Below, piece by piece: positions 1,741-13,522 of a stretch of 35,555 bases of DNA (its first letter is position 1; every line of letters starts with the position of its first letter). Location of the stretch: contig NZ_RYFD01000046.1 of the NCBI RefSeq assembly GCF_004138135.1, positions 1-35,555 on the forward strand, given 5' to 3'. A program made the translations under genes and the position numbers. Under the pieces are notes generated by a model, which saw only the letters and a list, made by a program, of their open reading frames with translations, ran no database searches and had not been told where the DNA came from. Source of the stretch: Candidatus Oscillochloris fontis. GTDB taxonomy: Bacteria > Chloroflexota > Chloroflexia > Chloroflexales > Chloroflexaceae.

Positions 1741-4371
1741 ATGGCGAAGAAGTGGGTCTACCTTTTCCGTGAGGGTGACGCGTCGATGCGTGATCTCCTT
1801 GGCGGGAAGGGCGCAGGCGTGGCCGAAATGACGCGTACTGGTGTACCGGTACCCCCTGGGTTTACGATTACCACCGAGGCGTGTAACGCCTACTACGAGA
1901 GCGATAAGCAGTTTCCTGAAGGGATGTGGGATCAGGTGCTGGTGGCGCTCAAAGAGGTTGAAAAACAGACCGGTAAGAATTTTGGTGATCCGAGCAATCC
2001 GCTCTTGGTGTCGGTACGTTCGGGAGCCAAGTTCTCCATGCCCGGCATGATGGACACGGTGCTCAACCTAGGCTTGAATCAGTCCACCCGCGAGGGGTTG
2101 GCGAAACTTACCGATAATCCACGCTTTGCCGCTGATGCCTATCGCCGCTTCATCCAACTCTTTGGCAAGATTGTGTTGGGAGTCGAGGGGGATCGTTTTG
2201 AGCATTTGATGGAAGTGGCGAAGGGCCATGGCGAGCGCCTCGATACTGATCTGAGCGCGGAAGAGTTGCTGGCGATTGCTGAGCAGTTCAAGCAGGTGAT
2301 CAAGGATGATGTGGGGATCGAGTTCCCCGAAGAGCCACTTGATCAGTTGCGCGCTGCGATTGGAGCGGTCTTTAGCTCCTGGAATGGCCGCCGTGCGATT
2401 GATTATCGCCGTATCAATAAGATTGCCGACAACTTGGGCACGGCAGTGAATGTCCAGTCCATGGTCTTCGGGAATATGGGTGATGATAGCGCCACTGGCG
2501 TGGCCTTCACCCGCAGCCCCAGCACCGGCGAGGCTGAGATCTTCGGTGAGTATCTGGTGAATGCCCAGGGCGAGGATGTGGTCGCGGGTGTGCGCACGCC
2601 TCAGCCGATCTCGAAACTCAAGGATACGATGCCAGAGGTCTATGAGCAGTTCCATACGATTGCCAAGCAGCTTGAGGCGCACTACAAGGATGTGCAGGAC
2701 GTTGAGTTCACCATCGAGCGCGGCAAGTTGTGGATGTTGCAGACCCGTAATGGCAAGCGGACGGCGGCCTCTGCGCTGAAGATTGCGGTTGATCTGGTGC
2801 GTGAGGGTGTGATTGACAAGGCAACGGCGGTGCAGCGTATCGAGCCACACACTCTTGACCAGTTGCTCCACCCCATGATTGACCCGGCGGCGCGTGTAAC
2901 GGCGACGGTGCTCACCACGGGTCTGCCCGCCTCGCCAGGTGCCGCGAGCGGCACGGCGGTCTTCGATCCCGATGAGGCCGAGCACATGGCCGCTGAGGGG
3001 CATAAGGTCATCCTGATCCGTGTCGAGACGGCCCCGGAGGACTTCCACGGCATGGTGGCAGCCCAGGCCATCCTGACCGCTCGTGGTGGCATGACCAGCC
3101 ACGCGGCGGTGGTGGCGCGTGGTATGGGTAAGCCGTGTGTGGCGGGTGCCGGTGATCTGCGCGTCAGCTATGCCGATCAGTCGGTCTCGGTGGGTGAGCA
3201 GAAGATCGCCAAGGGCGACTGGGTCACGCTGGATGGCAGTACCGGCGAGGTCTTCGTCGGCAAGATGCCCACGGTGGAGCCGGAGCTTTCGGGCGATTTT
3301 GCCGAGTTTATCGCCTGGGCCGATGAGTTCCGCACACTTGGGGTGCGCGCCAATGCCGACATCCCGCGTGACGCCAAGGTGGCGCGGGCCTTCGGTGCCG
3401 AGGGCATCGGGCTGTGCCGCACCGAGCACATGTTCTTCGAGGGTGATCGTATTGATGCTGTGCGCGAGATGATCCTCGCCGATACGCTCGAAGATCGCCG
3501 CGCCGCGCTGGCCAAGATCGAGCCGCTCCAGCAGGGCGACTTCGAGGGGCTTTTCCGTGAGATGGCCGGCCTGCCGGTGACCATTCGTACCCTCGACCCA
3601 CCGCTGCACGAGTTCCTGCCCCACGAGGATCACGAGATCGAGGCGCTGGCCGCCAAACTGGGGGTCGAGTTCGCCAAGGTCAAGTCGCGGGTCGAGAATC
3701 TGCGTGAGGCCAACCCGATGCTCGGTTTCCGTGGCTGCCGTTTGGGGATCATCTACCCAGAGATCACCGAGATGCAGGCCAACGCGATCTTCAAGGCGGC
3801 GGTGGCGGTCAAGGCCGAGGGGGTTGATGTCCATCCTGAGGTCATGATCCCGCTGGTGAGCAACATCACCGAGTTGAAGATCCAGGAAGAACTGGTACGC
3901 AAGGTGGCCGCCGAGGTCTTTGCGGCGGCGGGGGTCGAGATCCCCTACTTGGTCGGCACGATGATCGAGTTGCCGCGTGCGGCGCTCACCGCCGACGAGA
4001 TCGCCCAGACGGCAGAGTTCTTCAGCTTTGGCACCAACGACCTGACCCAGACCACGTTGGGGCTGAGCCGCGACGATGCGGGGCGCTTCTTGCCCGCGTA
4101 TGTCGAGAAGAAGCTGATGCCCGACGATCCTTTCCAGTCCATTGATCAGCGTGGTGTGGGCCAGTTGGTGCAGATTGGCACTGAGCGTGGCCGCAGCACC
4201 CGCCCCAACCTCAAGGTGGGCATCTGTGGTGAGCATGGTGGCGACCCGGCGAGTGTCGAGTTTTTCCACCGTGCGGGTCTGAGCTATGTCAGTTGCTCGC
4301 CCTACCGCGTGCCGATTGCGCGCCTCGCGGCTGCTCAGGCAGCCCTGGGGGATGGCAAGCGGGATAAATAA
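1741..4371 (+). CDS. ppdK: pyruvate, phosphate dikinase
   Basis: An 876-residue enzyme, the usual size of bacterial PPDK. It catalyses the reversible conversion of pyruvate, ATP and phosphate to PEP, AMP and pyrophosphate in the cytoplasm. Domain order is visible: the N-terminal ATP-grasp domain begins with KWVYLF and the glycine-rich DLLGGKGAGVAEM; the central phosphohistidine domain has GGMTSHAAVVARGMGKPCV with the carrier His454; the C-terminal PEP/pyruvate barrel ends with CGEHGGDP containing the acid/base Cys829. These match the Clostridium symbiosum His455/Cys831 spacing. The start is fixed by AGGAGG at 1728-1733. In phototrophic Chloroflexi this enzyme supplies PEP for carboxylation and gluconeogenesis; here it shares the window with PDH and citrate synthase. 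The middle and 3' parts are visibly richer in GC at third positions than the 5' part. The function is very sure. Confidence 0.97.
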   Translation: MAKKWVYLFREGDASMRDLLGGKGAGVAEMTRTGVPVPPGFTITTEACNAYYESDKQFPEGMWDQVLVALKEVEKQTGKNFGDPSNPLLVSVRSGAKFSMPGMMDTVLNLGLNQSTREGLAKLTDNPRFAADAYRRFIQLFGKIVLGVEGDRFEHLMEVAKGHGERLDTDLSAEELLAIAEQFKQVIKDDVGIEFPEEPLDQLRAAIGAVFSSWNGRRAIDYRRINKIADNLGTAVNVQSMVFGNMGDDSATGVAFTRSPSTGEAEIFGEYLVNAQGEDVVAGVRTPQPISKLKDTMPEVYEQFHTIAKQLEAHYKDVQDVEFTIERGKLWMLQTRNGKRTAASALKIAVDLVREGVIDKATAVQRIEPHTLDQLLHPMIDPAARVTATVLTTGLPASPGAASGTAVFDPDEAEHMAAEGHKVILIRVETAPEDFHGMVAAQAILTARGGMTSHAAVVARGMGKPCVAGAGDLRVSYADQSVSVGEQKIAKGDWVTLDGSTGEVFVGKMPTVEPELSGDFAEFIAWADEFRTLGVRANADIPRDAKVARAFGAEGIGLCRTEHMFFEGDRIDAVREMILADTLEDRRAALAKIEPLQQGDFEGLFREMAGLPVTIRTLDPPLHEFLPHEDHEIEALAAKLGVEFAKVKSRVENLREANPMLGFRGCRLGIIYPEITEMQANAIFKAAVAVKAEGVDVHPEVMIPLVSNITELKIQEELVRKVAAEVFAAAGVEIPYLVGTMIELPRAALTADEIAQTAEFFSFGTNDLTQTTLGLSRDDAGRFLPAYVEKKLMPDDPFQSIDQRGVGQLVQIGTERGRSTRPNLKVGICGEHGGDPASVEFFHRAGLSYVSCSPYRVPIARLAAAQAALGDGKRDK

Positions 4372-4381
4372 GGCTTGTTCC

Positions 4382-4516
4382 GTAACTGTTCACACTTGGG
4401 GTAAAAGAAACCTCGTGTTGACGCAAAGGCGCGAAGACGCAAAGGGTTGTTGCAGGCTTTGCGTCTCTGCGTCTTTGCGTCAAAACCTGGAGGCTAGGAG
4501 AAGTGTGAACAGTTAC
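4382..4516. repeat. 135-bp inverted-repeat element (MITE-like)
   Basis: The ends are perfect 16-bp inverted repeats: GTAACTGTTCACACTT at 4382-4397 and its complement at 4501-4516. Inside is a second, 27-bp inverted repeat (4418-4444 against 4457-4483, 24 of 27 paired) built from repeats of GACGCAAAG / CTTTGCGTC. The whole could fold into a long hairpin. No ORF and no clear target-site duplication was found. A related CTTTGCGTC motif occurs at 24508-24528. It starts 10 bases after the ppdK stop and may also terminate its transcript. Confidence 0.7.
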
Positions 4517-4531
4517 CTCGTTCCGTGCGCA

Positions 4532-4589
4532 GGGGCGCGTCGCGACGCGCCCCATGTTATGTTCGTGGGGGCGCGTCGCGACGCGCCCC
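4532..4589. repeat. two copies of a GC-rich perfect palindrome
   Basis: Two identical 22-bp perfect palindromes occupy 4532-4553 and 4568-4589. Their core is GCGCGTCGCGACGCGC flanked by GG/CC. They are 14 bases apart and lie just before the start codon of the acyl-CoA synthetase. A third, slightly shorter copy directly follows the TetR gene at 19301. They are self-complementary without a loop and so could be DNA-level sites or hairpin seeds. Confidence 0.75.
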
Positions 4590-4603
4590 TACATGTTCTA
4601 TCT

Positions 4604-6202
4604 ATGCACTCCATCCTTGCTGCCACACTTGCTCACGCCGCCCATACCCCGCAGCGCACCTGCCTGATCTGGCAGGGTCAGCCGATCAGCTATGCCGAGT
4701 TGGTGGCGGCGGCCCGCACGTGGGCCGTCTTCTACCGTGCTCTCGGTCTGGTGCCGGGGGATCGCGTGGGTCTCTATTTGGGCAACACACCCGCGTTTCT
4801 AGCCGCCTACCTCGGTACGCACATGGCTGGGGGTGCAGCGGTATTGATCAACACCCAGTACCGCCAGATCGAACTCGAACATATCCTTACTGATAGTGAA
4901 CCGCATATCGCCGTCGGTGATGCAACGACGGCCCCCGAACTGCGCATTATGCTGGGCAAACTGCGCCAAGCCGGGCAGGCGATCACCCAGATCACCAGCG
5001 ACGGTTCGCGTTTTGGCATGCCGGTGCAGGAGCGCGGGCCGCTCGATCTGCCATTGCCGCAACCCGACGATCTGGCTATTTTGGCCTATACCTCTGGCAC
5101 TACCGGGCGATCCAAGGGGGCGATGCTCACCCACGCCAACCTCGTGGCGAATAGTCGGGCGGTGCTGGACGCATGGCAGTGGACGGAGCGTGATCATCTG
5201 TTGCTCACATTGCCGCTCTTCCACATTCATGGTTTGGGGGTGGGCGTGCATGGCAGTTTGCTGGCCGGAGCTAGTTTTGATCTGCGGCCCCAGTTTGAGC
5301 CGGACGCGGTTCTATTTGCCCTGGCCAGTGGCACGGTGAGTATGTTCTTTGGTGTCCCGACCATGTATGGGCGTTTGCTTCAGGTGGCAAGTGGTGCCGA
5401 ATATGCCGCAGTCCGCAGCGCCATCAGGCAGCGCATGCGCCTCTTCGTCTCCGGCTCGGCGGCGCTACCGCCGCAGATCTTCCACACCTTCCGCGATCTC
5501 TTCGGCCATACCATCCTCGAACGCTACGGCATGACCGAGACGATCATGAATCTGACTAACCCCTACCAGGGCGAACGGCGGGCGGGCACGGTGGGGATGC
5601 CCTTCCCCGGCCAGGCGGCGCGCATCGTGGATGTGCGTAGCCGCGAGGTTCTTCCCGACGGCGAGGTGGGCGAGATCCAGGTACGCGGGCCACACGTCTG
5701 CGCGGGCTATTGGCGCAACCCCCATGCCACTGCCGAGGTCTTCGGGGCGGATGGCTGGTTCAGTACCGGCGACCTAGGGCGGCGCGAGGCCGATGGCTAC
5801 TTCGTGATTACTGGGCGCGCCAGGGAGTTGATCATCAGCGGCGGCTACAACATCTACCCGCGTGAGGTGGAAGAGCGCCTACTCAGCCACCCGGCGGTGC
5901 TGGAGTGTGCGGTGCGTGGCCTGCCCGACCCCGATTTTGGTGAGCAGGTGGCAGCGTGGATTGTGCCTAGTACCTTCCCGCTCGATGCTGTGGCGAGCGC
6001 CGCGCTGAGTAGCGAACTGATCACCTTCTGCCGAGCCGGATTGGCGGCCTACAAACGCCCGCGCCAGATCTTCTTTGTGGCCGCGCTGCCGCGTAATGCG
6101 CTGGGGAAGGTGCAGAAGCATCTGCTTACGAGAAGTCCTGGGAGCGAGGGCGTCCCGCCCTCAGCGGATACGAGGGCGAGACGCCCTCGCTCCCAGGCTT
6201 AA
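4604..6202 (+). CDS. AMP-forming acyl-CoA synthetase, malonyl-CoA synthetase (MatB)-like
   Basis: An adenylate-forming enzyme of 532 residues from the ATG at 4604. It activates a carboxylic acid with ATP and transfers the acyl group to CoA. Visible motifs are the phosphate-binding YTSGTTGRSKGAM, LFVSGSAALP, ERYGMTET, TGD in WFSTGDLG, GGYNIYPREVEE, and the C-terminal lysine K502 in LGKVQKH. SGSAALP, ERYGMTET and RRAGTVG together resemble malonyl-CoA synthetases, but a short-chain substrate is only inferred. A longer frame opens upstream at 4286, but it runs through palindromic repeats and overlaps ppdK, so it was not used. No good ribosome site precedes 4604. Residues 511-532 are encoded by a palindromic repeat (6137-6197) and are not part of the enzyme fold. 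It could equally be a general medium-chain acyl-CoA ligase. Confidence 0.85.
   Translation: MHSILAATLAHAAHTPQRTCLIWQGQPISYAELVAAARTWAVFYRALGLVPGDRVGLYLGNTPAFLAAYLGTHMAGGAAVLINTQYRQIELEHILTDSEPHIAVGDATTAPELRIMLGKLRQAGQAITQITSDGSRFGMPVQERGPLDLPLPQPDDLAILAYTSGTTGRSKGAMLTHANLVANSRAVLDAWQWTERDHLLLTLPLFHIHGLGVGVHGSLLAGASFDLRPQFEPDAVLFALASGTVSMFFGVPTMYGRLLQVASGAEYAAVRSAIRQRMRLFVSGSAALPPQIFHTFRDLFGHTILERYGMTETIMNLTNPYQGERRAGTVGMPFPGQAARIVDVRSREVLPDGEVGEIQVRGPHVCAGYWRNPHATAEVFGADGWFSTGDLGRREADGYFVITGRARELIISGGYNIYPREVEERLLSHPAVLECAVRGLPDPDFGEQVAAWIVPSTFPLDAVASAALSSELITFCRAGLAAYKRPRQIFFVAALPRNALGKVQKHLLTRSPGSEGVPPSADTRARRPRSQA
6137..6197. repeat. nested palindromic repeat fused to the synthetase 3' end
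   Basis: Outer arms of 18 bp (6137-6154 and 6180-6197, beginning CCTGGGAGCGAGGGCG) pair perfectly and enclose inner arms CGCCCTC / GAGGGCG. The repeat lies wholly inside the annotated coding sequence; the stop codon TAA (6200-6202) falls three bases after it. It could form a stable hairpin in the mRNA and act as terminator as well as coding the tail. Confidence 0.8.
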
Positions 6203-6333: not shown

Positions 6334-6771
6334 ATGCTCGATCTGACGTCATTACGCAACGCGATAACCGCCCTCCGTGATAGCATTGAAGTTGTCACGA
6401 ACGCGGAATGGTTTGATCAACAATCAGCGAAGATCCAGCAGACCCTTATAAGTGGAGTGATTCAGAGCTTCGAGTTTGTCTATGAACTGAGTATCAAAAT
6501 GCTGAGACGACAGCTTGATCTCGAATCGGCTAGCCCCAACGAGGTGGATCAGAGTAGCTTCCGCGATCTGCTGCGCTTAGCGGCGAGTAGAGGCTTGATC
6601 ACTGATCCGCAAGCCTGGTTTGAGCATCGCTATATGCGCAACCTGACTGCCCACACCTACGATCAGGCCAAGGCGCAGCAGGTCTATCAGCATGCACTCG
6701 GCTTTCTTGCTGATGCACAAGCGTTGCTCACCCAATTGGAGTCGCGTCATGCTGCCGCAGATAGAGATTGA
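6334..6771 (+). CDS. hepT: HEPN-domain toxin, HepT / HI0074 family
   Basis: A 145-residue all-helical protein of the HI0074 nucleotidyltransferase-partner family. Residues 102-109 read RNLTAHTY, the exact Rx4HxY motif of HepT toxins (Arg102, His107, Tyr109), which form a dimeric RNase site. In characterised HepT-MntA pairs the partner nucleotidyltransferase modifies the tyrosine with AMP and silences the toxin. The partner is the next gene, overlapping by 23 bases, in the same toxin-first order. The start at 6334 has AGGAG at 6322-6326. The older label 'substrate-binding protein' refers to the same family. Family assignment is firm; toxicity in this host is inferred. Confidence 0.88.
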   Translation: MLDLTSLRNAITALRDSIEVVTNAEWFDQQSAKIQQTLISGVIQSFEFVYELSIKMLRRQLDLESASPNEVDQSSFRDLLRLAASRGLITDPQAWFEHRYMRNLTAHTYDQAKAQQVYQHALGFLADAQALLTQLESRHAAADRD

Positions 6772-7063
6772 ACCCCAGCACTGGGAGATCGTGCGCACGA
6801 TTCTGCATACCCATATTCCTCACTATGAGGTATGGGCATTTGGTTCACGGGCACGCAGGCAGGCCCAGCGCTTCTCTGATCTCGACTTGGCGATTATCAC
6901 TACAACCCCGCTCCCTTTACGGGTGTATGCCACTCTGGTCGAGGATTTTATCGATTCGGATCTGCCATGGCGTGTGGATGTACTCGACTGGGCGAGCATC
7001 ACCCCCGCATTTCAGGCGATCATTGTGCAGGATCATGTGGTGGTGCAGCAGGGGGGGAATTGA
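6749..7063 (+). CDS. mntA: minimal nucleotidyltransferase antitoxin, MntA family
   Basis: A 104-residue nucleotidyltransferase with the signature GSx10DxD: Gly32-Ser33, then Asp44 and Asp46 (FGSRARRQAQRFSDLDLAI). The third acidic residue is probably in WRVDVLDW. Known family members transfer AMP to the tyrosine of their HEPN toxin. The ATG at 6749 lies inside the end of hepT (23-base overlap), so the two are translationally coupled. The longer frame from 6692 would overlap hepT further and adds residues outside the family fold. It is an antitoxin by family and context. Confidence 0.88.
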   Translation: MLPQIEIEPQHWEIVRTILHTHIPHYEVWAFGSRARRQAQRFSDLDLAIITTTPLPLRVYATLVEDFIDSDLPWRVDVLDWASITPAFQAIIVQDHVVVQQGGN

Positions 7064-7088
7064 TCTTCAGAGTCTTGTATGCTATAAT
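7060..7088 (+). promoter_or_regulatory. promoter of the Phd/PIN module with repeated box
   Basis: TTGATC (7060-7065), a 17-base spacer and a perfect TATAAT (7083-7088) preceded by TG (extended -10) form a strong promoter that starts inside the end of mntA. Immediately after it, CTAGACAG is repeated directly (about 7089-7105), overlapping the start of transcription. This is where an autoregulating antitoxin would be expected to bind. The ribosome site AGGAGG is at 7104-7109. Confidence 0.7.
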
Positions 7089-7114
7089 CTAGACAGACTA
7101 GACAGGAGGACGTG

Positions 7115-7369
7115 ATGGCACGTACATGGCAACTCCAAGAAGCCAAAAACAAGTTCAGTGAAGTTGTGGATGCGGCGCTGATTCATGGCCCCCAAATCAT
7201 CACCAAGCATGGGGTTGAGACGGTGATCGTACTCTCCTATACCGAATATCGTTCAATGCTGCTGCGCCAAAAACCACTCGCGGCCTTTTTTCGCGAATCA
7301 CCACTTGTTGCGTATGATCTCGATCTTACTCGTGATACCAGTCCGTTGCGCACTGATATTTCGCTATGA
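7115..7369 (+). CDS. Phd/YefM-type antitoxin
   Basis: An 84-residue protein of the Phd/YefM family. It has the typical start TWQLQEAKNKFSEVVDAAL (DNA-binding and dimer region), then GPQIITKHG and VIVLSYTEYRSML, followed by a flexible acidic C-terminus that would neutralise the toxin. ATG 7115 sits five bases after AGGAGG; a GTG at 7112 is too close to it. The gene overlaps the toxin by four bases (ATGA). It probably represses its own promoter through the repeated CTAGACAG box. Confidence 0.88.
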   Translation: MARTWQLQEAKNKFSEVVDAALIHGPQIITKHGVETVIVLSYTEYRSMLLRQKPLAAFFRESPLVAYDLDLTRDTSPLRTDISL

Positions 7370-7791
7370 ACTATATTCTTGATACCAATATTATCTCGGA
7401 ACTGATCGCGAAACAACCCAATCCACATGTTATTGACTGGATTGATCAGTGTGATCCACAAACCGTATACTTGACCGTCATCACCATCGGGGAGCTACGC
7501 AAAGGGATCGAAAAGTTACCAGCCTCAACCCGGAAAGCAACCCTCACCGATTGGCTTGCAACAGATTTACTCCTTCGATTTGAGGGTCGTATTCTTGCCC
7601 TAACGACCGAGGTGATGTTGGTATGGGGGGAACTTACGGGTGCCTTAGAACTTCGGGGCACACCGATAGCCGCAATTGACTCGCTGATTGCGGCGATTGC
7701 TCTTCATGGAGGGTACACCTTGGTAACCCGTAATGAACGTGATTTCCGCTATACAGGTATTCCGGTCATTAATCCCTGGAACGCTGCATAA
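7366..7791 (+). CDS. PIN-domain ribonuclease toxin (VapC/FitB-like)
   Basis: A 141-residue PIN-domain protein. Acidic residues expected to bind the metal are Asp6 (YILDTNIISEL), Glu43 (TIGELRKGI), Asp105 (AAIDSLIAA) and Asp126 (TRNERDF). Length and motifs match VapC/FitB toxins, Mg-dependent RNases that cut tRNA, rRNA or mRNA. It is translationally coupled to the antitoxin (overlap ATGA at 7366-7369). The pairing with a Phd-type rather than a VapB-type antitoxin is common. The target RNA cannot be told from the sequence. Confidence 0.9.
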   Translation: MNYILDTNIISELIAKQPNPHVIDWIDQCDPQTVYLTVITIGELRKGIEKLPASTRKATLTDWLATDLLLRFEGRILALTTEVMLVWGELTGALELRGTPIAAIDSLIAAIALHGGYTLVTRNERDFRYTGIPVINPWNAA

Positions 7792-8268: not shown

Positions 8269-9882
8269 CTATTCCCAGTTCCAATCCTTAAACTTATCGC
8301 GCAGTTGGGTCTTGAGGAACTTGCCGGTAGAGGTACGCGGGATCTCCGCGACAAAGACAAAGGCATCGGGAATCCAGAACTTGGCGACCTTCGGCTCCAA
8401 GAAGGCGTGTAACTCTTCGGAGGTGACACTGGCCCCCTCTTTGAGCACGATAGCCGCCAGGGGGCGTTCGTCCCAGCGCGGATGGGCCACGGCAATCACC
8501 GCCGCCTCGCGCACCGCCGGGTGGCCCATGAGGGTATTTTCCAGATCGAGTGAACTGATCCACTCACCGCCCGACTTGATCAGATCCTTGGTGCGATCCG
8601 TGATCTTGACATACCCATCCGGGTCAATCGTTACCACATCGCCGGTACGGAACCAGCCGTCGCGGCTCCAGCGATCCTTCTCGCTCTCCAGCTTGAAGTA
8701 GCTTTCGGCAACCCACGGCCCGCGCACTTCAAGTTCTCCCATCGTCTTGCCATCCCACGGTGCTGCGCCGCCCTCGTGGGCTGCGCGTACCTCAACAAAG
8801 GGTACCGAAACCCCCTGGGTGGCGCGTAGCGCGTAGAGGGTATCCGCGTCGGCGCTGGTGGCCTCTTGCAGCTTGGGGCGCGAGACCGTGCCAAGCGGGC
8901 TGATTTCGGTCATGCCCCAGGCATGCACCACCTTCAGGTTGTGTTGATCGAAGGCACGGATCATCGCCTCGGGTGCGGCGGCCCCACCCACCACCATCTC
9001 CATGGGTTGCAGATTCCAGCGCTGCGGTTCCTTTTGCAGCGCCTGAAGCACCCCCATCCAGATCGTGGGTACCCCGGCGGTCTTGGTCACCTGTTCTGAT
9101 TCATAGAGATCGAGCAGACTGACCGGATCGAGGAAGGGGCCGGGCATAGCGATCTTGCAGCCGATTATCACCCCGGTAAAGGGCAGACCCCATGCGTTGA
9201 CGTGGAACATCGGTACGACCGGGGTCAGGGTATCATGTTGATTAAGATTAAGCGCATCGGGTAGCGCCGAGCAGAGCGAGTGGAGGATGGTGGAGCGGTG
9301 CGAATAGACCACACCCTTGGGCTTGCCGGTCGTACCTGAGGTATAGCACATCCCCAAGGGGGTGTTCTCATCAAGATCGAGGTACTGGAACTTGCCCTCG
9401 GCAGTAGCCAGGAAATCCTCGTAGCTCGTCAGCCCCTCAGGGACGGGCTGGCCACTCAGCGGCACCACCAGCACCTTCTCGACCTTGATATGATCCTTGA
9501 TCGCCTCATAGAGCTTGAGCAATACATCATCAACGATCAGGAAACGATCTTCGGCGTGGTTGATGATATAGATAATATCGCTCGGATGCAGGCGCAGATT
9601 GAGCGTATGCAGCACACCACCTGCCACGGGGACGCCAAAATAGGCTTCGAGGTGGGCATAGGTATTCCAACTCAGGGTTGCGACGCGATCACCCGGTTGC
9701 AAGCCTGCCTTTTGGAGCGCCTCGGCAAGCGCCCGTGAGCGGCGGTAGAAATCGGCGTAGGTGTAGCGGTGCAGCGACTTGTCGGGCATACGGGTAACGA
9801 TTTCGCTCTTAGGGAAGAGCGTACCAGCCCGTTCCAGCAGATGGTTCAGGGTCAGGGGGAAGCCCATCATCGTTGATCGCAT
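8269..9882 (-). CDS. medium/long-chain fatty acyl-CoA synthetase
   Basis: A 537-residue AMP-binding enzyme that activates fatty acids to acyl-CoA. Motifs in order: YTSGTTGKPKGVVYSHRST (phosphate loop), VPMFHVNAWGLP, VVHAWGMTEISPLG, WFRTGDV, KDLIKSGGEWISSLDLEN, and the catalytic lysine in RTSTGKFLK. The NAWG and GGEWIS motifs and overall length are those of AlkK-type medium-chain synthetases and their long-chain relatives. The ATG at 9882 is preferred because GGAG lies six bases before it; a GTG at 9894 would add four residues and has a poorer site. It is cotranscribed with the small membrane protein and divergent from the B12 sensor gene. Confidence 0.92.
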   Translation of the reverse strand: MRSTMMGFPLTLNHLLERAGTLFPKSEIVTRMPDKSLHRYTYADFYRRSRALAEALQKAGLQPGDRVATLSWNTYAHLEAYFGVPVAGGVLHTLNLRLHPSDIIYIINHAEDRFLIVDDVLLKLYEAIKDHIKVEKVLVVPLSGQPVPEGLTSYEDFLATAEGKFQYLDLDENTPLGMCYTSGTTGKPKGVVYSHRSTILHSLCSALPDALNLNQHDTLTPVVPMFHVNAWGLPFTGVIIGCKIAMPGPFLDPVSLLDLYESEQVTKTAGVPTIWMGVLQALQKEPQRWNLQPMEMVVGGAAAPEAMIRAFDQHNLKVVHAWGMTEISPLGTVSRPKLQEATSADADTLYALRATQGVSVPFVEVRAAHEGGAAPWDGKTMGELEVRGPWVAESYFKLESEKDRWSRDGWFRTGDVVTIDPDGYVKITDRTKDLIKSGGEWISSLDLENTLMGHPAVREAAVIAVAHPRWDERPLAAIVLKEGASVTSEELHAFLEPKVAKFWIPDAFVFVAEIPRTSTGKFLKTQLRDKFKDWNWE

Positions 9883-9934
9883 GAAGTTCTCCACTATTCC
9901 GCAGCAGCGCGGGTCTTCTCACTTCTCCACTCCA

Positions 9935-10042: not shown

Positions 10043-10151
10043 AGATTATGCACCAGCCGAAAGGATATAGGTATCATAGCAAGAGTAGTGTGGGGGAGTC
10101 AAATCTATATAGTATAGTAGAGGAATTGATTCACCAAACCAGTGCTGCGCT

Positions 10152-10197: not shown

Positions 10198-11241
10198 ATG
10201 AGCGAACACATCCACCAACCAATAGGAGAACTTCAATCCTCCTATTTGCATGCACTCGTCGCCGGTAGCGGACGTGAGGCGGATCGGGTGGTGACCGCAG
10301 CACTTGATCTTGCCGTGACACCGCAGCAGATCTACCTCGATATTTTCCAGCCCACGGCCTACCAGATCGGGCAACTCTGGCAGCGTAACAAGGTGAGTGT
10401 GGCCCAGGAGCACCTAGCCACCGCGATTGTTGAGCGTCAGATGGGCGAAATGCACCCAATGTTTCGGCCCAAACAGCCGCGTTCGCACACGATGGTGCTG
10501 GGGTGTGTCCCCGATGAGTGGCACCGGGTCGGTTTGCGGATGGTGGCGGACTTCTTCGAGGCTGATGGCTGGGACGTACACTATCTGGGGGCGAATGTAC
10601 CGGTGAAGGATTTGGTCGGATTGGCGCGCGAGAGTCATGCTGATCTGGTTGGTCTTTCGGCGGAGATGATCTTCAATGTGCCGAGGGTCTCCGAATTTGT
10701 CCAGGCGCTCGATCAGGCTGGGCTGAGTGGTATTCCGATTATTGCTGGGGGCATGCCGTTCATTGTGCAGCACGATCTTGCGCAAGCGCTGAATCTGCGT
10801 GGGAGTGCGCCAAATGCGGAGCAAGCGGTGCGTTTGGCCCACGAGATTGTGGGCACGAGATCAAGCCCGCCGAGCCCCTTGATGTTGGCGGCAACCGTGC
10901 TGGCACTACGGGCCAATAGTGAGAAGATCTTGGCCGAGGCGTTGGAACGTTCGCAGGTTGCCGGGGATACCGAGATCGCGCTGATCCACGCCGGGTACCA
11001 GTATGTGTTACGGATGCTCGATGCAGCCTTGGTGGCGGGCAGCCCGGAACTTCTGGATGGCCAGATTTCGTGGGCCAACGACCGCCAGCCCCATGATGGC
11101 ATTGCGCCAGAGCAACTGTTTGAGCGCTTGATTCGGATGGCTGACACGTTGCGCGAGACCTTGCCTAGCCCGCACGGTGCGATTGCGGCCAGTTATGTGG
11201 ATCGCTTGGTTGCGCAGCAGCAGGTGTATTTGGCGGGGTAG
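10198..11241 (+). CDS. CarH-like cobalamin-binding sensor lacking a DNA-binding domain
   Basis: A 347-residue protein from ATG 10198, which has TAGGAG at 10185-10190; the frame is open further upstream but has no ribosome site there. Residues 1-95 form a helical cap with the motif W61-x9-E71-H72 (WQRNKVSVAQEH), the signature of adenosylcobalamin-binding CarH photoreceptors. Residues about 97-230 are the Rossmann-like B12 domain with E107-W-H109-RVG (ExHxxG), His109 being the expected lower ligand, followed by YLGANVP and IIAGGMPF. The W-to-His spacing of 48 is close to CarH. Unlike CarH there is no MerR-type HTH; instead about 110 helical residues follow, ending at the stop. It therefore probably signals by protein contact, most likely with the convergent kinase/regulator pair. 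It could instead bind methylcobalamin or act as a redox sensor. Confidence 0.85.
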   Translation: MSEHIHQPIGELQSSYLHALVAGSGREADRVVTAALDLAVTPQQIYLDIFQPTAYQIGQLWQRNKVSVAQEHLATAIVERQMGEMHPMFRPKQPRSHTMVLGCVPDEWHRVGLRMVADFFEADGWDVHYLGANVPVKDLVGLARESHADLVGLSAEMIFNVPRVSEFVQALDQAGLSGIPIIAGGMPFIVQHDLAQALNLRGSAPNAEQAVRLAHEIVGTRSSPPSPLMLAATVLALRANSEKILAEALERSQVAGDTEIALIHAGYQYVLRMLDAALVAGSPELLDGQISWANDRQPHDGIAPEQLFERLIRMADTLRETLPSPHGAIAASYVDRLVAQQQVYLAG

Positions 11242-11312
11242 GGGCGAAGCATTGCCCCCCAATGTATTATGGGTTTAGCCAGTGATTCTGAGGGGGCAAT
11301 GCTTCGCCCCTA
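11239..11312. terminator. bidirectional terminator containing both stop codons
   Basis: Perfect 21-bp arms (11239-11259 and 11292-11312; TAGGGGCGAAGCATTGCCCC and complement) enclose a 32-base loop. The first TAG is the stop of the B12 sensor gene and the last three bases are the stop of the histidine kinase on the other strand. It is a symmetric structure suited to end both converging transcripts. There is no long T-run. Confidence 0.65.
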
Positions 11313-12539
11313 CAGTTCAACCGGCAACACGATCCGTGCTCGCGTCCCTTGACCGGGGCTACTCTGAAACTCCAGCTTCCCGCCGTGGCGCTCGATGATT
11401 CCTCGGCTGATCGCGATGCCTAGGCCGGTTCCCGAACCGACTGGGCGGGTGGTGAAGAATGGTTCACCGAGGTGCGCCAGTGTGGCGGCGTCCATGCCCA
11501 CACCTGTATCCACCACACAGATCTCGACCTGCTGATCCAAAAGCCGACTGCTGATCTGCACCTCGCCGCTATGCTGAATAGCCTGGATGGCGTTGGTGAG
11601 CAGGTTGAGTACCACCTGGTTGATCTGGCTGGGGTTGCAGACCACCTGCGGCAACTGACCATACTCCTCGTGAATCTTGATCCCCACCGGGGCGCTCGAA
11701 CGAGCAATGCGTACCGTACTCATCAGCCCGCTATTCAGATCGGCAGCGAGGGTGCCCGTCTCGTCGGGGCGGGCGAAGCTGCGCAGCGCTTTGACAATCG
11801 TGGCAATGCGCGTGACCCCCTCGCGGCTTTCGGGGAGGATGTCGTCTAGGTCGGCCCAGATCTGTTCGGCTTCGGCGTGCATGTCGAGATCGTGCTGCTG
11901 ATGAGCCAGATCGGGGTGGTTGGCGAGGAGATCATGGTAGGCTTGGTGAAGTTGACGTAATGTATTAAGACTACTATCGAGAAACTCCAGATTATTGGCC
12001 ACAAACGCCAGCGGGGTATTCACCTCATGGGCCACCCCAGCCACCAGTTGGCCGAGGGCACGCATCTTCTCCGAGCGCACCAATTGCACCTGGGTCTCTT
12101 TGAGCGCAGCGTGGGTTCGTTCAAGTTGGAGCAGGGCACCTTCGAGTTGTTGGTTTGTTGCGGACAACTGACTCGCGAGCGAGAGCGCGGCATCGAGGGG
12201 CCGCCCGATCAGCGCGACACCGGGCGATGATTCGGGGCTAGAACGCCAAGCCCAGGCCGTATAGGTCACCAGGATAGGTGCAGCACCGGGGTTGGGGTGG
12301 TTGAGCTCCCAATCATAGGTGATGCCCTCAAGTAGCGTCTCTTGTACGAGGAGCGTGGCCTTCTCTTGGCTAAAGGCATCCACGACACTCGCAAAGGGCT
12401 GGTTGATTAACGCCGTAGCTGGGCGGGCAAAGAGTGCTTCGGCGGCTGGATTGAGGTGGACAAAACAGCCCTCGGTATCGAGCAGGAGGAAGGGCAGGCG
12501 AGTTTGGGCAAGTGCGCTATCAATCAGTGCTGTACTCAT
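11310..12539 (-). CDS. PAS-domain sensor histidine kinase
   Basis: A 409-residue soluble kinase. An N-terminal PAS-like domain (residues about 8-100, with FLLLDTEGCFVHLNPAAEALF) is followed by a coiled coil (about 115-160, SATNQQLEGALLQLERTHAA). Next is the phosphoacceptor helix with His171 in GVAHEVNTPLAF, and then an ATPase domain with the N box (NLLTNAIQA), G1 (DTGVGMD), F (EPFFTT) and G2 (GSGTGLGI) boxes. No membrane segment or signal peptide is seen, so it senses an internal cue. It overlaps the response regulator gene by four bases (ATGA), which marks a cognate pair. The 'NTPL' box is typical of cyanobacterial and Chloroflexi kinases. Convergence with the B12 sensor suggests, but does not prove, that the latter provides the input. 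Confidence 0.92.
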   Translation of the reverse strand: MSTALIDSALAQTRLPFLLLDTEGCFVHLNPAAEALFARPATALINQPFASVVDAFSQEKATLLVQETLLEGITYDWELNHPNPGAAPILVTYTAWAWRSSPESSPGVALIGRPLDAALSLASQLSATNQQLEGALLQLERTHAALKETQVQLVRSEKMRALGQLVAGVAHEVNTPLAFVANNLEFLDSSLNTLRQLHQAYHDLLANHPDLAHQQHDLDMHAEAEQIWADLDDILPESREGVTRIATIVKALRSFARPDETGTLAADLNSGLMSTVRIARSSAPVGIKIHEEYGQLPQVVCNPSQINQVVLNLLTNAIQAIQHSGEVQISSRLLDQQVEICVVDTGVGMDAATLAHLGEPFFTTRPVGSGTGLGIAISRGIIERHGGKLEFQSSPGQGTRARIVLPVEL

Positions 12540-13522
12540 AGTTCCGCAGGTGGTGAGGGCGTTCGGGTTGGGGTGAGACGCGGACCCAAGCGCATCGCCG
12601 CCAACCAGCCACGATAGAAGAGCACCAGATCGCCCATCAACTCGGGCAGCAGCATGCGGGCTTCTTCGCTATAGGCAGCCGCCCGGACAACTGGTGCATC
12701 GGTGGTGCAGCGGTTCAATCCAGAGAGGTGAATCTCAACCACATCACGTGGCGTAGCCCAGACTGAACCAAGATGCTCACTCAGGGTATGTAACTGATCT
12801 GAGACATGCGACACGCTGCCGTGGGCACGCACATTGAGCGCATCCTCCAGAATTGTGGCATAGGTTGTGACCATCTCAGCGAAGCGGGTGGGCATACGTT
12901 GGGCGAGGCGCTGATTATCGGCGGGTGGCCCGGCAAAGAACGAGAGTTGTGAGGCGGTTGGGCTTGGTTCAGAGCGAATCCGTTCCCATTCGGCAAAGAG
13001 CGTGTCGGTGTTGCCTTCAACTAGGGCATCAAGGGTGCGCTGAATCTCGCTGATCTGATCGCGGGCTTCGGTAGCCGCATTGGCCGCCCGGTGCAGCACC
13101 GACGGATCAAGGAAGCCTACCTGATAGCTATGCACCGCTTCATCAAGCTGGTGGCGCAACTGCTGAATATCCCACGGTTTGGGGATAAAACCACGTACAT
13201 TACCAAGATTGAGCGCATCAACCAACGCTGAGACATCCGTATAGCCAGAGATCAGGATGCCAACGGCTTGCGGGCGCAGATCGCGCGCCTTCTCTAAGAG
13301 TTGCACCCCCGACAGATCGGGCATGCGTTGATCGGTCAGAATAACTGCAATTGGCTCACGCGCAATGACCTCCAACGCCTCCTCAGCCGTCGTCGCCGTA
13401 AAGACGGTGAAGCGGTCGCGCAGGCTGCGTACTAAGCTCCGGGTGATCGCTGGTTCGTCATCAACCACAAGAATCGCAGGGCGTCCCTGCGTCGTTGGTT
13501 CGCCGGATTTGAGAGTTGTCAT
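12536..13522 (-). CDS. response regulator with KaiA/RsbU_N-like helical output domain
   Basis: A 328-residue protein. Residues 15-135 are an intact receiver: acidic pair DD21-22, phosphoacceptor Asp64 in LTDQRMPDLSG, Ser/Thr in ISGYTD, and Lys115 in PKPW. A helical linker (about 140-185) follows. Residues about 210-310 form a helical domain with VVEIHL (261-266) and a C-terminal helix with EEARMLL...LVLFYRG (286-305). This pattern recalls the KaiA C-terminal domain and the related RsbU N-terminal domain (from memory of those families, not an alignment). There is no DNA-binding or enzymatic output domain, so it must act through protein contact. It is transcribed first in the pair, ahead of the kinase. 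No convincing ribosome site is seen; a TATAAT (minus strand, 13607-13612) lies about 85 bases upstream. Confidence 0.85.
   Translation of the reverse strand: MTTLKSGEPTTQGRPAILVVDDEPAITRSLVRSLRDRFTVFTATTAEEALEVIAREPIAVILTDQRMPDLSGVQLLEKARDLRPQAVGILISGYTDVSALVDALNLGNVRGFIPKPWDIQQLRHQLDEAVHSYQVGFLDPSVLHRAANAATEARDQISEIQRTLDALVEGNTDTLFAEWERIRSEPSPTASQLSFFAGPPADNQRLAQRMPTRFAEMVTTYATILEDALNVRAHGSVSHVSDQLHTLSEHLGSVWATPRDVVEIHLSGLNRCTTDAPVVRAAAYSEEARMLLPELMGDLVLFYRGWLAAMRLGPRLTPTRTPSPPAEL

Follow-up and report, generated by a model that had tools for sequence, protein, structure and literature searches.

A B12-photoglobin protein facing a kinase/regulator pair

The window, a 35,555-nt stretch of the green photosynthetic bacterium Candidatus Oscillochloris fontis (contig NZ_RYFD01000046.1), carries a gene for a vitamin B12-binding protein, here called the 10198 protein, which converges with a gene pair for a PAS histidine kinase and a response regulator with a receiver (REC) domain (Table 1). 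A preliminary description of this DNA had located the three genes and noted that the B12 protein lacks a helix-turn-helix (HTH) domain; open reading frames (ORFs) and Pfam agree on both points. We found that the B12 protein ends in a photoglobin domain and that the regulator ends in a KaiA-like domain. The locus is best read as a light input that uses B12 and acts on a KaiA-like regulator, a reading to which we give somewhat less than an even chance.

The start of the B12 gene at 10198 was preferred over an in-frame upstream ATG at 10048 because the orthologs in genomes G002, G026, G027, G028 and G031 begin near that position. The kinase consists of PAS, HisKA and HATPase domains by Pfam, and its ORF shares 4 bp with that of the regulator, a sign that translation of the two may be coupled. 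The 68-bp gap between the convergent genes forms one long hairpin (RNA fold z = -7.0) with 17-base arms that are unique in the whole genome. The terminator scan allows loops of 3-8 bases only and hence could not list this hairpin. A terminator common to the B12 gene and the pair had been proposed; the hairpin fits this proposal, but no T-run was seen after it in the sequence, making a two-way terminator plausible though not of the usual kind.

Table 1. Features of the B12-photoglobin locus, in window coordinates
Feature	Position	Strand	Basis
B12-photoglobin (photocobilin-like) protein, 347 aa	10198..11241	+	Pfam, PDB sequence search, structure model, fold search
Four-helix B12 cap domain (residues 15-82), G58xxW61 + E71-H72	10240..10443	+	Pfam B12-binding_2, alignment
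B12-binding Rossmann domain (residues 99-194), D106xxH109 + G131xxxP135	10492..10779	+	Pfam B12-binding, alignment
C-terminal photoglobin domain (residues 226-347)	10873..11238	+	Profile search, globin alignment; G266 at SasPcob D270, W292 = SasPcob W296
Inverted repeat between convergent genes, possible two-way terminator	11242..11309	.	Repeat scan, RNA fold
Soluble PAS histidine kinase, 409 aa, phospho-acceptor H171 (AHEVNTP)	11310..12539	-	Pfam, sequence
Response regulator, 328 aa, REC + KaiA-like C-terminal domain	12536..13522	-	Pfam, alignment, domain HMM, predicted helices
KaiA-like four-helix domain (residues 205-315)	12578..12910	-	Domain HMM on kaiB loci, predicted four helices

The Wx9EH motif (W61, E71, H72) and the ExH ligand H109, which the preliminary description had picked out, were present; together with G58, E107 and P135 they were invariant in 15/15 aligned sequences, window protein included. 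The 10198 protein shares these adenosylcobalamin (AdoCbl) photoreceptor core motifs with CarH/LitR but differs from them by its extra globin and by the absence of their MerR-type N-terminal HTH, since Pfam matched no HTH in it. It scored 65.9 bits against the NCBIfam CarH equivalog model, whose cut-off is 400. The earlier CarH-type assignment stands for the AdoCbl core motifs and not for membership of CarH, and the top matches were photocobilins. These results support a CarH-type B12 core without HTH, for which AdoCbl binding and a light response are predicted.

The C-terminal helical domain reported earlier is real and conserved, as judged by alignment and by the structure model. It is a photoglobin, so that the nearest known kind of protein is the photocobilin rather than CarH. 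In a PDB sequence search the best matches were photocobilins (8j2w, E 1.8e-25, aligned 17-307), and a PDB profile search built from 15 sequences gave photocobilins at E 7e-39 over residues 14-323 and CarH at 2e-9. The known photocobilins SasPcob (8J2W/8J2X) and AbDPcob (8J2Y) have the same make-up of B12 cap and Rossmann domain (W61, E71-H72, lower His) followed by a C-terminal globin, and the 10198 protein likewise has its B12 module fused to a globin. Its structure model had a mean predicted local distance difference test (pLDDT) score of 87.7 and a predicted template modelling score of 0.61. Photocobilins headed the fold search over about 340 columns (8j2x: Z 24.1, 322 aligned, root-mean-square deviation (rmsd) 15.7); an rmsd near 16 A leaves the placement of the globin on the B12 part unsettled in this match. 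Below 8j2x came 4heh (Z 20.2, rmsd 2.6, 208 aligned) and 7te2 (Z 19.1, rmsd 3.2, 204 aligned), both considered in a comparison with the SCHIC/AerR family that covered the fold only. For two globin relatives that stand alone, Pfam gave Phycobilisome matches below the cut-off.

SasPcob binds both AdoCbl and biliverdin, and its Co-C bond is broken by green or red light; Asp270 holds three pyrrole rings of the biliverdin and Trp296 contacts ring D (PMC10979010). In an alignment of 80 globins the Trp296 column was Trp in 80/80. The Asp270 column was Asp in SasPcob and in 61/61 photoglobins placed N-terminal to a B12 domain, His in AbPcob, and Gly in 13/13 fused and 4/4 separate globins of the subfamily of the 10198 protein (17/17). 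This subfamily kept W292, R296 and D300, which belong to a conserved stretch of the globin, in 12/12 aligned members, and had no Cys within three columns of the Asp270 column. The 10198 protein thus lacks the biliverdin-holding Asp of photocobilins, as does AbPcob, which is a named photocobilin. With Gly in the Asp column it also lacks the CXQD motif given for photoglobins in PMC10151467, a source that gives RGMC as the motif of the BBAG-2 globins; RGMC may perhaps put a Gly in the same column. A heme oxygenase (PF01126) was matched in 27/82 genomes of the order and in only 4/16 carriers of the B12 gene (G000, the window genome, with G001, G002 and G040). Since Asp is replaced by Gly in all 17 globins and heme oxygenase is found in so few carriers, biliverdin is probably not bound by most of them, and the protein is a variant of the photocobilins that probably lacks biliverdin. 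The subfamily raises the question of what a bilin-type globin does after loss of the bilin-holding Asp. The B12 ORF of G001 (contig C277; loci L045, L080) is only 228 aa long and, in the tail-to-tail arrangement, ends 33 bp short of the end of the kinase gene, so that the globin is missing naturally there.

The heme-oxygenase match of the window genome lies at 29266-29757 of contig C63, in a 433-aa open frame 4-5 kb from a B12-binding ORF; a pair of this kind, 4-7 kb apart, was also seen in G034 and G036. On a contig titled Methanobacteriaceae archaeon (L105, 8965-10051), a B12 protein gene overlaps that of a separate globin of the Asp-less subfamily, a possible case of transfer or of a binning error.

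Co-inheritance of the B12 gene with the kinase and regulator

Genes were sought in the 82 genomes of the order, 41 of them in the family of the window, with B12 orthologs counted at E <= 1e-95. The searches scored the best first-look candidates (26 for the regulator, 22 for the kinase and 10 for the subfamily globin in most rows), and absences are not final. B12 orthologs were found in 16/82 genomes, all in the window family, if the G001 match, which spans residues 9-222 only, is included; the next match had E 1e-47 and ended at residue 212. Among the named carriers are Chloroflexus islandicus (L082), Candidatus Viridilinea mediisalina and an uncultured Oscillochloris metagenome-assembled genome. 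The subfamily globin occurred in 12/400 sampled genomes of the phylum, again all within this family. All 16 carriers of the B12 gene had matches to photosynthetic reaction centres, and all 16 had KaiB.

Co-occurrence of the genes in related genomes had been set beforehand as the test of a linked system, and it was borne out. Regulator orthologs (E < 1e-60) were found in 18/82 genomes, 15 of which also carry the B12 gene; two rows matching in the REC part only, G070 (E 3.8e-39) and G063 (5.1e-21), were dropped from the count. The sole B12 carrier without a regulator, G026, had a kinase fragment. The 41 family genomes divided into 15 with B12 gene and regulator, 1 with the B12 gene only, 3 with the regulator only and 22 with neither (Fisher 1.8e-7). 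When the B12 label was shuffled within genera, the observed overlap was reached in 387/20000 shuffles for the regulator and in 120/20000 for the regulator or kinase. A kinase adjoined 17 of the 20 regulator copies; two copies, one each in G039 and G040, had none, and one copy lies at a contig end. Kinases of the Chloroflexus-genus (g4) genomes escaped the kinase search at the cut-off used and came to light in the neighbourhood ORFs.

Where the B12 gene adjoins the pair, the arrangement is tail-to-tail in G000, G001 and G002 and head-to-head in G031; in G001 the regulator closes contig C209 and the kinase opens C277. The other 12/16 genomes have the genes apart, or on short contigs that leave linkage undecided. 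An uncultured bacterium (L088) encodes a B12 protein, a separate globin, a REC protein and a kinase in one row, and this kinase is 47% identical to the window kinase over nearly its length. A second row (L089) has B12, globin and REC genes, then the contig end. The window B12 protein looks like a fusion of the products of the first two genes of the L088 row, and this row is the strongest support for an evolutionary link between the B12 protein and the kinase/regulator pair. BBAG-2 globins of Myxococcales (PMC10151467) are alike in that a globin gene stands beside a gene for a B12 protein, as in L088, L089, L105 and L137; unlike them, the window subfamily has no Cys near the Asp column, and in the window the globin is fused.

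We also collected 61 loci encoding a B12 domain with an N-terminal photoglobin-like part. They come from the 80 loci, out of 357, that are most similar to the window protein, and so are a non-random sample. A kinase ORF directly followed the photoglobin-B12 gene in 53 of the 61, a count that leans towards itself because six of the 15 sequences behind the kinase hidden Markov model (HMM) came from these same loci. Photoglobin-B12 sensors coupled to kinases are thus widespread, and the 10198 protein is a variant of this kind with reversed domain order. A B12 input into a two-component pathway had been put forward as a new arrangement: the link to the pair is supported by the presence of the regulator in 15/16 carriers, but such coupling of a B12 sensor to a kinase is widespread.

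In five Chloroflexus-genus (g4) loci (L046-L049, L052) the next gene after the B12 gene, in the same orientation, encodes a giant protein of about 2100 aa, in which SdrD_B repeats were seen in L052, the sole one scanned. The conserved neighbours of unlinked B12 genes, a tyrosyl-tRNA synthetase and a giant SdrD_B protein, gave no clue to function. The regulator gene in three further loci of that genus (L070, L071, L074) stands head-to-head with a gene of one cluster, encoding in L070 a REC-HD (HD_5) protein; a link to cyclic di-GMP is possible.

The KaiA-like domain and rows of kai genes

The REC domain of the regulator is complete, with D21, D22, D64, S92 and K115 all invariant in 19/19 sequences. 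Its C-terminal part has four predicted helices (211-311), most blocks at pLDDT >= 90. A domain HMM run on nine kaiB loci matched a protein upstream of kaiB in G064 (a REC protein, E 7.8e-40), G065 (6.7e-40) and G005 (1.3e-40), and further kai-locus proteins in G006, G007 and the window genome (contig C121, 9.5e-28), thus in 6/9 loci. Across the order the domain was found in 40/82 genomes, all 40 with KaiB, and in 0/40 KaiB-less genomes. Of its 60 copies, 39 have a KaiB match no more than 1.5 kb away; the other 21 are 20 window-family regulators and one copy at a contig end. A tree of these domains left 12/20 inner branches open, and it is undecided whether the window type arose from the kai-locus type.

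KaiA3 (Sll0485) is described as a REC domain with a KaiA-like bundle, with Roseiflexus and Chloroflexus among its holders and with kaiA3-kaiB3-kaiC3 synteny except in C. aggregans (PMC11372060). The window regulator is alike in having a true REC with a phospho-acceptor Asp (D64) and, as its homology to proteins beside kaiB indicates, a C-terminal KaiA-like bundle. It differs in that its gene adjoins a kinase and a B12 sensor, not kaiB/kaiC. KaiB was matched on contigs C57 and C121 and not on the window contig, so the kaiB3-kaiC3 adjacency of KaiA3 is absent. Contig C121 (L176, 4083-9878) carries in one row a PAS-PAS-KaiA-like protein, KaiB, KaiC and a PAS/GGDEF-EAL protein. With KaiB at two places and KaiC at C121, a candidate KaiC target for the regulator exists in the genome.

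The 61 photoglobin-B12 loci were fetched by their B12 motifs, and kai genes were no part of the choice. Eight of them contained KaiB (L102, L121, L123, L125, L127, L138 from Adhaeribacter terrigena, L148, L150), six of these eight a strong KaiC match at E < 1e-200 (L121, L123, L125, L127, L138, L150), and four a KaiA-like domain (L123, L125, L127 and L148, in L148 only as a 95-aa ORF). A weaker KaiC-like match in L149 (2e-54) was left out of the count. The KaiC HMM was built from ORFs beside kaiB, and Pfam confirmed KaiC in two cases, L176 and L127; the KaiB of L127 was confirmed likewise. The gene order of L127 is photoglobin-B12, kinase, REC-KaiA-like, KaiB, KaiC, kinase, and L123 has the same order preceded by another kinase. 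As a control, KaiB was sought in 49 genomes, with 11/61 loci and L094 left out. KaiB was present in 13 of these genomes as 14 copies, of which 6 lay inside the fetched locus compared to 0.051 expected under random placement (Poisson 2.4e-11).

A possible light input to the Kai timer

The proposed B12-based light input draws on domain make-up, conserved residues, the Asp-to-Gly change, co-occurrence and the related genes beside kaiB/kaiC in other bacteria. By analogy with CarH and SasPcob, AdoCbl would be held base-off on H109 in the dark, under the cap formed by W61 and E71-H72, and would hold a head-to-tail dimer; green light would break the Co-C bond and open the dimer. The photoglobin domain would cover the corrin edge and, without the Asp, is probably structural or signalling, or may hold another tetrapyrrole. 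Either the light or the dark form would act on the soluble PAS kinase by protein contact, much as photocobilins of the stand-alone type do in vitro with the partner enzyme that they switch (PMC10979010). The kinase, to judge from its family, would phosphorylate D64 of the regulator, whose KaiA-like domain might then alter KaiC, the gene for which lies elsewhere in the genome, and thereby set or gate a Kai timer. The complete chain would give a Kai clock of prokaryotes its own pathway for light, from a photoglobin-B12 AdoCbl photoreceptor through its own kinase and a KaiA-like regulator to the resetting of KaiC. Its genes would form a single row that includes kaiB and kaiC in some Bacteroidota and Anaerolineae, and would be scattered but co-inherited in Chloroflexales. 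We hold this joint reading to be tentative and on balance doubtful.

Several results weigh against a light input that reaches KaiC. The B12 gene adjoins the pair in only 4/16 genomes (G000, G001, G002, G031), and G010, G024 and G039 have the regulator without the B12 gene. Neither the L088 nor the L089 regulator has the KaiA-like domain: that of L088 ends in PAS-GAF-GGDEF, and the domain HMM matched neither. The GxxH of the light signature (PMC11796333) is absent from the 10198 protein, which has D106-E-W-H109 at this place; in CtMerR the Gly of GxxH works via its main chain. Inside the family the fused B12 protein and KaiB co-occur only weakly (Fisher 0.03), and this is not main evidence. The domain HMM had no significant match in 3/9 kaiB loci, namely the second ones of G000, G006 and G007, and two of the 42/82 genomes with KaiB, G030 and G059, have no KaiA-like domain. 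Pfam matches to the domain were weak, and below cut-off where bits are shown, both for KaiA (best 5.9e-4, 1/16 rows) and for RsbU_N (best 0.0023, 4/16 rows), and bDLD3 (3/16 rows, 5.5e-5) scored as well as these in some. PDB searches with the C-terminal domain gave weak, seemingly unrelated matches only (best SHERP, E 0.0024), with neither KaiA nor RsbU in the profile search, and an HHalign/HMM comparison with two RsbU_N proteins gave scores like those of controls. The whole-model fold search of the regulator returned mainly REC-containing chains, covering the REC part only, and the absence of KaiA and RsbU among its rows carries no weight. In the literature on these proteins we found no light, B12 or KaiC experiment.

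The B12 protein could instead sense the AdoCbl level or corrinoid state and report B12 supply to the kinase pair. Corrinoid methyltransferase proteins are also close in fold and sequence, and the incomplete GxxH would fit such a role; the closest solved relatives are nevertheless photoreceptors, the residues by which light sensors hold the adenosyl group (W61, E71-H72) are invariant, and every carrier has reaction-centre matches, which makes supply sensing unlikely. A full two-colour photocobilin, with biliverdin or another bilin bound through other residues, would agree with the globin relationship, the retained W292 and the heme-oxygenase match in the window genome. AbPcob, with His for Asp, still binds some biliverdin (PMC10979010), and BBAG-2 globins bind biliverdin with RGMC (PMC10151467), perhaps with Gly in the Asp column. 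This explanation is less probable still, and we consider it distinctly improbable, given the uniform Asp-to-Gly change with no Cys close by, the scarcity of heme oxygenase among carriers, and G001, where the globin is gone yet the kinase still adjoins the B12 gene.

If the B12 protein and the kinase pair were separate systems, their adjacency would be chance and their co-occurrence shared ancestry. The genes are indeed non-adjacent in most genomes, and the layout of the adjacent ones varies, but two distinct adjacent layouts inside one family, the within-genus shuffles, the rows of four genes in L088 and three in L089, and the kinases directly after photoglobin-B12 genes elsewhere all speak for a connection, and separateness seems rather unlikely. 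The sensor-kinase part might also be right while the KaiA-like domain acts on another partner, in the manner of RsbU, whose partner in a stress switch is an RsbT-type kinase. The fold is common to RsbU and KaiA (PMC11372060) and the RsbU_N matches point the same way, whereas every genome of the order in which the domain was seen also has KaiB, with most copies <= 1.5 kb from a KaiB match; we therefore regard an RsbU-like partner as improbable to much the same degree as a two-colour photocobilin.

Compared with the photocobilins, the system of the 10198 protein differs both in the sensor, with Gly266 for Asp270, and in its genetic tie to a kinase and a KaiA-like regulator. A photoglobin paper of 2022 reportedly already predicted that bundles of photoglobin and B12 domains sense light in signalling systems, and it may contain data on such gene neighbourhoods. 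Kai genes next to a photoreceptor gene have some precedent: in some myxobacteria, tandems of bacteriophytochrome and kaiC genes have been proposed as a possible light link to a clock (PMC12288465). These involve a phytochrome, not a B12-photoglobin, and the part of that review drawn on here names no KaiA-like regulator or cognate kinase and treats CarH and KaiC apart. For the clock input of Synechococcus, no photoreceptor had been detected as of 2017, light being sensed via redox and energy state (PMC5520375). Among the papers listed in our literature search, judged by titles and abstract starts, none joined B12 photoreceptors with Kai genes. A B12 sensor beside a KaiA-like regulator suggests a possible route for light to a bacterial clock, and the photoglobin-B12 sensors with their own kinases in kai rows offer concrete genes for testing direct Kai photoreception, non-phototrophs included.

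Elsewhere in the window, two AMP-binding (acyl-CoA synthetase-like) genes lie at 4286-6202 and 8269-9894. Between them, at 6334-7791, are a nucleotidyltransferase/substrate-binding pair and a PIN-domain gene.

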